64,000 nt of DNA from Natrinema salifodinae (GTDB lineage: Archaea; Halobacteriota; Halobacteria; Halobacteriales; Natrialbaceae): NCBI RefSeq assembly GCF_900110455.1, contig NZ_FOIS01000003.1, positions 389,491-453,490 of the forward strand. Direction: 5' to 3'. Position numbers and translations under genes: made by a program. This document shows, in pieces, positions 23,519 to 27,082 of this stretch (the first letter of the stretch is position 1; each line of letters opens with the position of its first letter). Below the pieces are notes generated by a model. It did not search any database, was not told the DNA's origin, and worked only from the letters and a program-made list of their open reading frames with translations.

Positions 23519-26239
23519 TCACTCCTCGAGTCGCTCCTGTAGCTCCTGAACCTTCGTGACGAGTTCGATCGGCGGCGTCGTGTTCACGTCGATCGACTCG
23601 AGATCCGAGAGGACCGCTTTCACTTCGGGATCGATCGCCTGGTCGTCGTCCTCGCCGGACTCGGCCCCACCACCGGCGCCCGCCGGGCCGCCGTCGGTCG
23701 TCGCCGGTGTCTGCGCTTGCGAGCCGTCCTGGCCCTGATTCTGCGTCCGCATCGTTTCGCTCCCCAGATCGAAGACGGCCTGGACGGGCTCGGTCGAGCC
23801 GCCGCCCTTGGCCTCGATGGCCTTCTCCTCGCGCAGACGTTCGAGGACGTCCCGCGCGCGGTCGACGACCGGATCGGGGACGCCGGCGAGGTCGGCGACG
23901 TGGATCCCGTAGGAGCGGTCGGTCGGCCCGTCCCGGACCGTTCGGAGAAACGTGACGTCGCCGTCGCGCTCGTCGGCGGCCACGTGGACGTTGGCCACGC
24001 GCGGGAGGTTCTCCGCGAGCCCCGTCAGTTCGTGGTAGTGGGTGGCGAAGAGGGTCTTCGCCTGTACTTCGTTGTGCAGGTACTCCGTCGCCGCCCAGGC
24101 GATCGAGATGCCGTCGTAGGTCGCGGTTCCCCGCCCCACTTCGTCTAAGATCACGAGCGACTCCTCGGTCGCCGCGTGGAGGATGTTCGAGAGTTCGCTC
24201 ATCTCGACCATGAACGTCGACCGGCCCTGCGCGAGTTCGTCCAGCGCGCCGACGCGGGTGAAGATGCCGTCGACCAGGCCGATCTCGGCCTCCTTCGCGG
24301 GAACGAAACTGCCGATCTGCGCCAGCAGGACGATCCCGGCGACCTGTCGCATGTACGTCGATTTCCCGGACATGTTGGGCCCGGTAACGACCAAAAAGCC
24401 GCGATCCTCGTCCATCCGCACGTCGTTGGGGACGAACTCCGTCGTCTGCTCGACGACCGGGTGCCGGCCCTGATCGATCTCGAAGCGGTCGTCCCGGTGG
24501 AGGTCGGGCTGGACCCACCGGTTCTCGGCCGCGTGGGTCGCCAGGCTGGCGAGCGCGTCGACGGTCGCCAGCGCGCGGCCGACGTCCTGGAGCAGTTCGG
24601 CGCGGCCGGCGACCGCCTCGCGGAGCTCCTCGAAGAGTTCGTACTCCAGTTCCCCGCGTTGCTCCTCGAGGCGGAGGATCTCTCGCTCTTTCTCCTCGAG
24701 TTCGTCGGTGGTGAACCGCTTGGAGTTCTTCAGCGTCTTGATCTCCTCGTAGTGGTCCGGCACCCCGTCGGCGGCGGACTTGCCGACCTGAACGTAGTAG
24801 CCGTCGGTCTTGTTCCGGTCGACGGTGACGTGCGAGAGGTCGTGCTGGCGCTTCTCGCGTTCGGCGAGGGTGTCGAGCCACTCCTTGACCGCCTCGTGGC
24901 GCTCGATGACCTCGTCCAGTTCGTCGTCGTACCCTCGTTGGAGGAGTTCGCCCTGGGTCACCGTCGACGGCGGGTCTTCGGCGATGGCCTCCGCCAGGGT
25001 CTCCCGGAGGGCCGCGGCCGCCTCCCGGTTCGGCCGCTCGACGATCTCCGCGAGCGGCGAGTCGGCCAGGTCCGGGTTCGATGCGATGGTCTCGGCCAGG
25101 CGCGGCAGGACCGCCAGCGTCTCCCGGACGGCGACCAGGTCCCGCGCGTCGGCGCTGCCGTGGGTCGCCTTCGAGGCGAGCCGCGCCAGGTCGTAGGCCT
25201 CGCCGAGCGTGTCCTGAATCTCGTCGCGGGCCAGCGCCGCCGTCGAGAGCGCAGCGACACTGTCCTGGCGGCGCTCGAGCGTCTCCAGCGACCGGCGCGG
25301 CCGCTGGAGCCACTCCTTGAGCAGGCGGCCGCCGGCGCTGGTCTCGGTGTGGTCGATCGTCGCGAACAGCGACCCGTCGCGCTCGCCCTGCATGGTCTCG
25401 GTGAGTTCGAGGTTGCGCTGGGTCGTCGCGTCCAGCGTGACGTGATCGTTCCCGTGGTGGGCCTGGATGCGGGTCATCGAGGCCAGCACGCCCGCGCCGG
25501 TCTCCTCGACGTACGAGAGGATCGCGCCGGCGGCGGCGACGGCCGGCTCGGCGGCCGACAGCCGCTCGACGGTCTCGGTGCCGAACTGCTCGCGAACCCG
25601 ATGGTCGGCCCGCTTCGGCGCGAACGCCTCGGTCTCGTGGAGCGTCAGTGTCGCGTCGACGCGCTCGCGGACCAGATCCAGCAGTTCGTCGTCGGTGCGC
25701 ACGTCGGGCCCCGGCAGCACCTCGACCGGGTCGAACCGGTACAGTTCGGTCAGCGCCTCGTCGACGTCGTCGGCGTCCGCGACGAGGAAGCGGCCGGTCG
25801 TCACGTCGGCAAACGCCAGGCCGTACGCGTCTCCGTCCGCGCTCGTCGTTTCGCTCCCGCTCGAGCCGTCGATGACCGCCGCCAGGTACTGCGCGTCGGC
25901 GTCGCTGGTCTCTAGCAGGGTGCCGGGAGTCACGACGCGGACGATCTCGCGCGCGTGTCCGGAGTCGGTCTCGTACTGATCGGCGACGGCGACGCGGTAG
26001 CCGCGCTCGACGAGGGCCTTGAGATAGGGCGTGAGGTCGTCGACCGGCACGCCGGCCATGGGGTACGACGAGCCGTGAGAGGACTTCTGGGAGACTTTGA
26101 GGTCGAGCTCGTCGCTGACGATCTCGGCGTCCTCGCCGAAGAATTCGTAGAAATCGCCACACTGCATCGTCAGTAGTTCGGCGTCGGTCGCTTCCTTCAA
26201 GGAGAAGAATTCCCCGACGATCCCCGTCGCCTCGGTCAT
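23519..26239 (-). CDS. mutS: DNA mismatch repair protein MutS
   Basis: A 906-residue MutS of the MutS1 type, recognising mismatches and loops and recruiting MutL. The mismatch-binding domain contains GDFYEFFGEDAE, with the F-x-E motif as FYE; the Walker A TGPNMSGKST is at about 616-625, Walker B VILDEVGRGT at about 690-700, and TLFATHYHELTGLAE follows. A disordered Gln/Gly/Ala segment lies between ATPase and C-terminal dimerisation helix. The ATG at 26239 (MTEATGIVGEFFSLKE) fits the family start; upstream in-frame codons have no homology. Confidence 0.97.
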   Translation of the reverse strand: MTEATGIVGEFFSLKEATDAELLTMQCGDFYEFFGEDAEIVSDELDLKVSQKSSHGSSYPMAGVPVDDLTPYLKALVERGYRVAVADQYETDSGHAREIVRVVTPGTLLETSDADAQYLAAVIDGSSGSETTSADGDAYGLAFADVTTGRFLVADADDVDEALTELYRFDPVEVLPGPDVRTDDELLDLVRERVDATLTLHETEAFAPKRADHRVREQFGTETVERLSAAEPAVAAAGAILSYVEETGAGVLASMTRIQAHHGNDHVTLDATTQRNLELTETMQGERDGSLFATIDHTETSAGGRLLKEWLQRPRRSLETLERRQDSVAALSTAALARDEIQDTLGEAYDLARLASKATHGSADARDLVAVRETLAVLPRLAETIASNPDLADSPLAEIVERPNREAAAALRETLAEAIAEDPPSTVTQGELLQRGYDDELDEVIERHEAVKEWLDTLAEREKRQHDLSHVTVDRNKTDGYYVQVGKSAADGVPDHYEEIKTLKNSKRFTTDELEEKEREILRLEEQRGELEYELFEELREAVAGRAELLQDVGRALATVDALASLATHAAENRWVQPDLHRDDRFEIDQGRHPVVEQTTEFVPNDVRMDEDRGFLVVTGPNMSGKSTYMRQVAGIVLLAQIGSFVPAKEAEIGLVDGIFTRVGALDELAQGRSTFMVEMSELSNILHAATEESLVILDEVGRGTATYDGISIAWAATEYLHNEVQAKTLFATHYHELTGLAENLPRVANVHVAADERDGDVTFLRTVRDGPTDRSYGIHVADLAGVPDPVVDRARDVLERLREEKAIEAKGGGSTEPVQAVFDLGSETMRTQNQGQDGSQAQTPATTDGGPAGAGGGAESGEDDDQAIDPEVKAVLSDLESIDVNTTPPIELVTKVQELQERLEE

Positions 26240-26443
26240 ATACGGTGGGTGTCCGTCCACCGCTAAAATCCTGCGGATTCCGCGGTGAAAGTGGTCCGTT
26301 CGCAACGAGTACACGGCCGGATAGGTATTGTCCCCGCAGGGCCCTCGAAACGCCGCAGCCGTCGCTGTCCGCTCTGGAGTTTTCGTCTCGCTTCGACTTC
26401 GATCGGCCGCTCTCGAACCGTCGACTACCGATTCGAGACGATC

Positions 26444-26481
26444 AATAAAACGTCGGCCGGGAGCCGACGGTCGCCGTCGGC
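26444..26481 (-). terminator. Alternative hairpins followed by a T-run in the mutS leader
   Basis: Reading the minus strand, GCCGACGG-CGA-CCGTCGGC (26481-26463) can form an 8-bp hairpin. Its second arm can instead pair onward as CGTCGGC-TCCCG-GCCGACG (26469-26451), a 7-bp hairpin directly followed by TTTTATT (26450-26444). The two folds exclude each other, as in an attenuator, or the second simply ends a short transcript. It lies about 205 bp before the mutS start. Confidence 0.45.
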
Positions 26482-26652
26482 CCCGTCACTGGTTTCCGGT
26501 GGTAGGTGGGTGGATAGAGGATCGGAATCGTCGGCTGGCGTGACGTTGGAACGATCTCCGATCACCGGCGAGGGTGACGTGACGTCTCGGAGTGTCGAAC
26601 GGGTCTGGCAACGACCGAATTCGATCCCTCGCCGCTTAGTCCTACGCGAGCA
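26444..26652 (-). ncRNA. Candidate short transcript between a promoter-like element and a terminator-like hairpin
   Basis: If transcription starts about 25 nt after the TATA-like TTTTAA at 26675-26680 and stops at the T-run, an RNA of about 205 nt results. It has no recognisable protein and matches no RNA family I know. It could equally be the leader of mutS. The call rests only on the promoter and hairpin positions. Confidence 0.25.
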
Positions 26653-26672
26653 CTGTCTATACTTATTCACCC

Positions 26673-26686
26673 GTTAAAACCATTTC
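26673..26686 (-). promoter_or_regulatory. Promoter-like element identical to that of EF-1alpha
   Basis: GAAATGGTTTTAAC occurs here and again at 48509-48522 upstream of the EF-1alpha gene, both on the minus strand. The purine-rich start resembles a BRE and TTTTAA a TATA box. No coding start follows at leaderless distance here. Confidence 0.5.
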
Positions 26687-26722
26687 AGCGGCGGTAATCG
26701 GCCGATCTACGAACGACCGAGT

Positions 26723-27082
26723 TCAGTACAACGGGCCGCCGAGTGGCACCTCCTCGTCCGGCGAGACGAGAATCGGATACCCCTCCTCGCAGGGGACGCC
26801 GACGGTCAGCGCCTCGGATTTGAAGCCGGCGATCCGCACCGATCCGAGGTTCGTCGCACAGAGCACCTGGCGACCGACGAGGGCGTCGGCGTCGTAGTGA
26901 TAGTCGAGTTGCGCGGCGGACTGGATCGGTTCGCCGCCGCCTTCGGCCTCGCTCTCGTCGCCGGCATCCCCGCTGAGGTCGATCCACAGTTTCGTCATTT
27001 CCGGCTTCTCGGCTTCGGGAAACGGCTCGGCATCGATCACTTCGCCGACTTCGATCTCGACGTCGAACGGACTGTCGACCAT
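26723..27082 (-). CDS. CsaA-like tRNA-binding domain protein
   Basis: A 119-residue protein with one EMAP II/CsaA-type OB fold. FDVEIEVGEVIDAEPFPEA, QSAAQLDYHYDADALVGRQV and IAGFKSEALTVGVP match CsaA in order, and the end ILVSPDEEVPLGG fits too. Members bind tRNA; a chaperone role has been proposed for bacterial CsaA. An acidic insert (DAGDESEAEGGGEP, about 45-58) separates the strands and looks like halophilic expansion. The ATG at 27082 is preferred; eight extra codons upstream have no similarity. Confidence 0.85.
   Translation of the reverse strand: MVDSPFDVEIEVGEVIDAEPFPEAEKPEMTKLWIDLSGDAGDESEAEGGGEPIQSAAQLDYHYDADALVGRQVLCATNLGSVRIAGFKSEALTVGVPCEEGYPILVSPDEEVPLGGPLY

Follow-up and report, generated by a model that had tools for sequence, protein, structure and literature searches.

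A probable stand-alone structured RNA gene upstream of mutS and its dispersed multicopy family in Natrialbaceae

Introduction

In the haloarchaeon Natrinema salifodinae (Natrialbaceae), the gap upstream of mutS encodes a pair of overlapping hairpins, and it raises the question of whether these regulate mutS or are part of a gene in their own right. The gap lies in a 64,000-nt stretch of contig NZ_FOIS01000003.1 (the window, to which all coordinates refer). Here mutS is an ORF on the minus strand (23519-26239; ATG located), a neighbor and not a part of the RNA gene described below, and the syntenic upstream neighbor, likewise in the ORF list for the minus strand (26723-27082), encodes what we take to be a CsaA-like protein. 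An initial annotation had placed the hairpins between a promoter element and mutS and had considered two readings, a conditional terminator and a separate RNA of about 205 nt. We find that the minus strand from 26634 to 26451 probably constitutes an independent gene, whose product is a structured RNA of about 184 nt and which belongs to a multicopy family that is dispersed in Natrialbaceae. The part of this reading that appears secure from comparison of the sequences is that of an independent structured RNA gene belonging to a dispersed family.

Structure and boundaries of the RNA

The hairpins, including the TTTTATT that follows the second of them, are all present where the initial annotation had placed them. 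Hairpin A (GCCGACGG/CCGTCGGC) was located at 26481-26463 and hairpin B (CGTCGGC/GCCGACG) at 26469-26451 of the minus strand, and they are mutually exclusive because both use 26469-26463. Hairpin B, hereafter P4, forms a putative terminator with the T-run TTTTATT at 26450-26444 (together 26444-26469, minus strand); all nine of its pairs are compensated, 95.1% of its cells are paired, and it recurs at a near-constant place in most copies with a T-rich run behind it. The 5' arm of hairpin A, the competing stem (26463-26481, minus strand), was found in one of 44 copies, being peculiar to the window copy (five of the 49 copies were left out of this count as the terminator was not located in them), and hairpin A would seem to be a chance feature of that copy.

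A promoter element upstream of the hairpins is likewise present, but the box that is conserved at a fixed distance is not the TTTTAA element singled out at first. It is instead a TATA-like core promoter, GAATAAGTATAG, at 26668-26657 of the minus strand, some 23-34 nt ahead of the P1 foot, within a conserved block from -45 to -1 whose identity is 0.63 in 11 mutS-linked loci. Across 49 copies the consensus before P1 is GCCAAcAgggTTAtT, with T, T and A at 84, 80 and 76%. The TTTTAA element (GGTTTTAACGG, 26681-26671, minus strand) was located in the window sequence as a candidate upstream or operator element, and TTTAAC was spotted by eye in the mutS-linked relatives too.

Between promoter and terminator, the predicted RNA (26451-26634, minus strand, from the P1 foot to the end of P4) is organized around two further domains. 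The P1 domain (CGGCGAGGG/CCCTCGCCG, 26566-26634), whose outer pairs covary, encloses an inner hairpin P1a (GGTCGTTGCCAGACC, 26616-26602) and a conserved segment TCCGAGACGTC (26591-26581), both located in the window sequence, and is followed by the P2 domain (GATCGGAGATCGT...ACGATTCCGATC, 26520-26563), all on the minus strand. The structure was set by hand from an RNAalifold start on an alignment running from promoter to terminator. For the covariance model R2 (189 positions, 35 pairs, 31 sequences), 40 copies with their flanks were gathered and realigned; it took the place of a first model, R1, which rested on a partly misaligned 5' half. R2 matches the window copy from 26634 to 26446 with 112.1 bits.

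The training alignment has 55 cells altered on both sides of a pair, as against 22.5 ± 3.8 in shuffles. When 88 matches (85 distinct rows) are aligned to R2, an alignment biased towards the model's own structure, the both-side-changed cells number 194 as against 65.7 ± 8.4 in shuffles, and the covariation score is 0.309, compared to 0.207 for shuffled alignments and 0.037-0.101 for slid structures. Beyond P4, compensatory changes in this alignment are seen in six of the seven pairs of P2 and three of the four of P1, while P1a and P3 are weaker, being paired in 69% and 75% of cells, respectively. Covariation of the stems in relatives, which the initial annotation had named as a check, is thus found for P1, P2 and P4 but not for a switch between the two hairpins. 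Taken by itself, the single-sequence fold of 216 nt has only a moderate advantage over shuffles (z = -1.81), 11 of 200 of which equal or surpass it, and settles nothing; the evidence comes from the relatives. There, hairpin B, the promoter block and the outer helices are conserved and the helices covary, apparently to a greater extent than can be expected by chance. A promoter of its own, a conserved covarying structure and a terminator of its own, which together mark an independent RNA gene, all seem to be in place. The separate RNA of about 205 nt proposed as the alternative at the outset is, accordingly, the claim that has held up, with 85 distinct copies attesting to the conservation and covariation of a promoter-to-terminator unit.

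Since the RNA varies in length between 172 and 193 nt in the mutS-linked loci, with differences that are not in multiples of three, there appears to be no reading frame conserved across it. An 81-codon ORF (26425-26670, minus strand) overlaps the RNA, and is probably non-coding because the length changes in relatives break its frame. Searches of Rfam at the gathering score with the window, the window stretch and another copy (L078) yielded no match to the RNA, their sole match being a tRNA elsewhere in the window.

Relationship to mutS

The layout of the window might be taken for an attenuator, in which the RNA would be the 5' leader of mutS and the pairing of hairpin A (antiterminator) or hairpin B (terminator) would allow conditional read-through. 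The presence and overlap of both hairpins, the T-run after B and the promoter upstream on the same strand all fit such a device, but an antiterminator arm confined to a single copy does not, and the comparison of mutS loci within the genus points to a different arrangement. A block with the features of a core promoter (GGAATCCGCAGGATTTTAGCGGTGGACGGAC, 26251-26281, minus strand), apart from the RNA, lies before mutS; its counterpart in relatives, CCGCAGRRTTTTWG, is found in 28 of 28 mutS loci of the genus, and in all of them the TTTT begins 29 nt before the ATG, whether the RNA is present or not. The RNA itself lies upstream of mutS in 11 of the 29 loci of the genus at 42 bits or more, with a twelfth (G017) on a contig end. 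In these 11 loci, the promoter and RNA have an identity of 0.63, which drops to 0.35 over the preceding 75 nt and to 0.22 over the spacer that follows, and the last 75 nt ahead of mutS reach 0.73; the spacer between the RNA and the mutS promoter ranges from 24 to 147 nt and is unconserved.

The RNA is also absent from the gap between csaA and mutS in several relatives: the two genes are 82-143 nt apart in five RNA-less genomes as opposed to 385-563 nt in the RNA-positive genomes with both ends placed (csaA being placed by its conserved stop region, and found in all but 8 of 28 loci). In three other genomes (G003, G018 and G023; loci L195, L197 and L196), the RNA stays by csaA and mutS is about 2.6-3.1 kb away. 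Together, the invariant promoter block, the RNA-less loci and the genomes with a distant mutS argue that mutS is served by a promoter of its own, whose position would give the gene a very short leader, and that the RNA is a separable neighbor. With most copies of the family being nowhere near mutS, we consider attenuation extremely improbable and the conditional terminator of the initial annotation is given up. Attenuation of mutS would not be a function of the window RNA, the most to be expected being an effect of transcription through it on the downstream mutS promoter. This removes a misleading idea, namely that mutS is here under attenuation control.

Distribution of the RNA family

A blastn search with 26722-26440 as the query found matches in 20 of 61 genomes, the longer of which span the 5' three quarters and include loci without mutS in reach (L002-L004, L021). 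With R1, matches were recovered in 34 of 391 genomes of the class, with several copies per genome. With R2, none of the 29 genomes of the genus lacks the RNA, and 59 of the 125 genomes of the family have a match at E <= 0.001 (48 of 125 have a best E <= 1e-7). The highest copy numbers are 16 (G019) and 14 (G008), and the genome of the window has three copies by R2, a count that omits two matches at E about 0.3. Across the 391 genomes of the class, 51 have a match, 46 of them in the family; the other five belong to a single further family, and just one of these five is clear (46 bits). Because R2 also scores 20-26 bits within csaA in five mutS loci, there on the opposite strand, we do not trust scores under about 30 bits, and are unsure of the weak matches and of the spread beyond the clear genera. 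Named plasmid records with RNA matches come from Natrinema, Haloterrigena and Natronorubrum.

Copies on both chromosomes and plasmids, as well as the presence or absence of the RNA between csaA and mutS, are what one might expect of a non-autonomous mobile or selfish element, whose RNA would help it to spread, perhaps by acting as the substrate or guide for an enzyme that another locus encodes. Many pairs of copies also share a homology unit of about 240 nt (of 125 copy-versus-copy alignments, 51 end at +190 to +210, and the starting point is in many cases either near -40 or the start of the RNA), and this unit, like the tandem pairs about 285 nt apart, is consistent with such an element. However, no recurrent transposase or recombinase was recognized in the neighbor lists of the copies and no target-site duplication was established; furthermore, the copies are of old date and have diverged, and in 11 of 29 loci the mutS-linked one has kept its place. 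Neither did the queries used match viral sequences, with blastn of two copies against 50,697 phage records giving no match and two exact patterns being absent from IMG/VR. We regard this explanation as improbable, and return below to a family of independent RNA genes.

The tandem pairs lie between two lipoprotein-like genes at L158, L159 and L160 of G009, G001 and G014, respectively, genomes that have few copies of the RNA. Some RNA loci have genes nearby that we presume to be provirus-like, DUF7845 being the sole family match among them. A recurrent neighbor is a 127-residue nuclease-like ORF, which we also take to be provirus-like; it ends 100-170 nt before the RNA (L055, L076, L155, L065, L073, L087 and others) and is often broken into fragments.

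The D1 and C2H2-like neighbors

A family of 59-residue small proteins, here termed D1, recurs behind the RNA, many copies of which lie 42-70 nt upstream of a D1 gene on the same strand. In a hand-made list, partly chosen by eye, a listed RNA lies no more than 3 kb from 44 of 83 D1 places; in each of the 44 it is on the same strand, and in 39 it is upstream, mostly at 42-96 nt. An unselected replicate of 47 D1 loci from named genomes yielded 22 R2 matches (E <= 0.1) in 21 loci, every one of them upstream and on the same strand, with a gap of 27-74 nt in 19 loci; the genera concerned are Natrinema, Natronorubrum, Haloterrigena and, weakly, Natrialba. On the other side of the RNA, a gene for a C2H2-like small protein was found upstream in 15 of 27 places, always on the same strand, with a typical gap of about 97 nt (92-100 nt in 14 of the 27 and 137 nt in one).

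The fixed spacing of RNA and D1 bespeaks what appears to be a stereotyped two-gene locus. The spacing to both D1 and the C2H2-like gene may, nevertheless, reflect the shared descent of duplicated segments; since this could explain much of it, we put forward a functional partnership of the RNA and D1 as a hypothesis. The partnership is also not general, because most listed RNAs of the genus have no D1, which stands behind 36 of 133 (in a list partly chosen by eye), and the window copy is one of these solo RNAs. D1 is present in 87 of the 125 genomes of the family as against the 59 with the RNA, and in many genomes it is found without a detectable RNA. Remnants resembling the RNA precede a small number of D1 genes in genera that lack clear R2 matches (in L254, at 24 bits).

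D1 has a conserved promoter of its own, consisting of TTTATATA about 33-35 nt before the ATG and AGCCGCGGCCAACG directly before it, which is kept with or without an RNA upstream (L205, L227, L200, L060 and other D1 loci) and looks like an operator under common control. The protein is predicted to fold into three helices (mean pLDDT 92.8). Comparisons with Pfam, NCBIfam and PADLOC assigned it to no family, giving only weak rows, and Foldseek searches of the model against the PDB and viral models gave no match under E 1e-3; its best VIA Z of 7.5 (Sgt2) is within the range of unrelated helical bundles. A candidate antisense pairing of the RNA with the D1 start was rejected, as the mean duplex energy over 11 pairs was -43.1, against -43.1 for shuffled sequences and -44.9 with other RNAs.

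In type III toxin-antitoxin systems such as ToxIN, an RNA, a terminator and a small protein gene lie on one strand, and these systems are plasmid-rich. The D1-linked copies, though not the window copy, resemble them in having the RNA, terminator, 42-70 nt and protein gene in this order on one strand and in their plasmid-rich distribution, raising the possibility of a toxin-antitoxin-like module in which the RNA is the antitoxin and the solo RNAs are leftovers or anti-addiction copies. That D1 is often decayed, many of its matches being interrupted by stops, would also agree with this. Unlike ToxIN, however, the window copy shows no tandem repeat in 26430-26700, and D1, at 59 residues, is much smaller than the ToxIN protein, has its own TATA box and lacks a PADLOC, Pfam or NCBIfam relative. 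The many D1 genes without a detectable RNA, and the RNAs standing alone in core chromosomal places such as before mutS, are again at odds with a module of this type, which we hold to be unlikely.

Possible functions and parallels in known systems

Given its many genomic places, its own promoter and terminator and its conserved segments, the RNA most likely acts as a trans-acting RNA or as a component of an RNP. Transcription would start at the foot of P1 and end at the T-run, and the product would act in trans, either in regulation or as the RNA moiety of an RNP, for which D1 is the first candidate partner. The conserved segments GUCGUUGCC, GAGACAUC, AUCGUUCCAACGUC, AAUAGCCA and UUGACACACCACC are the likely contact sites; the window copy is without the last of them, UUGACACACCACC. 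Going further, we tentatively propose, while being rather doubtful that it will hold in full, that the RNA and D1, in some cases joined by the C2H2-like gene, make up a novel RNA-protein module of archaea, the RNA being either bound by D1 or in control of it. Such modules would multiply on plasmids and chromosomes, and solo RNAs, like that by mutS, would be domesticated copies that act in trans on the network.

Apart from the universal ones, few non-coding RNAs of archaea are known to have a conserved fold with several domains. A family such as this, with up to 16 covarying paralogs per genome, promoters and terminators of their own and a stereotyped small-protein neighbor, would give new access to RNA-based regulation, to RNPs or to selfish modules linked to RNA in archaea.

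A guide function has also to be weighed, in that the two hairpin domains with conserved internal segments recall box H/ACA-type RNAs, which direct pseudouridine formation in rRNA or tRNA. The accessible part of one study reports such two-hairpin guides in haloarchaea, with 23S positions 1956, 1958 and 2621 as targets (PMC2584109). Inspection of our alignment by eye, in contrast, revealed no ACA-like box at a fixed place after P1 or P2. Likewise, no antisense was seen to the 23S 1956/1958/2621 helix, and the RNA has no Rfam match. Searches of the genome of the window for rRNA gave no hit, although those of control genomes did. We judge a guide of this kind to be very improbable, and the reading of an independent trans-acting or RNP-associated RNA stands apart from it.

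In kind, the nearest parallel would be the Brt RNAs of Bartonella (Brt1-9). As described in the accessible part of the source, these are structured intergenic RNAs of 194-203 nt, present in many copies within one group and each directly upstream of a gene for a small protein, Trp (PMC5387305). The haloarchaeal family shares with them, by this description, the multiplicity, the structure, the intergenic location, the restriction to one group and the small protein gene directly downstream. It differs from the bacterial case in that its putative partner D1 is a predicted three-helix protein with its own promoter and many of its RNAs are solo. Haloferax sRNA132, as characterized in the accessible text (PMC6560208), is similar in being an independent haloarchaeal non-coding transcript that presumably acts in trans; by the same description, the RNA reported here is set apart as a covarying multicopy family with a recurrent protein neighbor. 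The family is not described in the accessible parts of Grosjean 2008 (PMC2584109), the halite sRNA paper (PMC7002113) or Weinberg 2010 (PMC2864571), nor did our searches of the open-access literature bring it to light.

Finally, an operator common to all copies was considered for the RNA promoter and rejected, with the mean inverted-repeat score, 4.19, hardly exceeding the 3.71 of shuffled sequences, and a palindrome occurring only in a subset of copies. In these (L056, L057, L064, L066, L070, L092 and L158-L160), GGTAACA-N4-TGTTACC or a near variant lies just upstream of the RNA promoter, and is possibly a site for a transcription factor.
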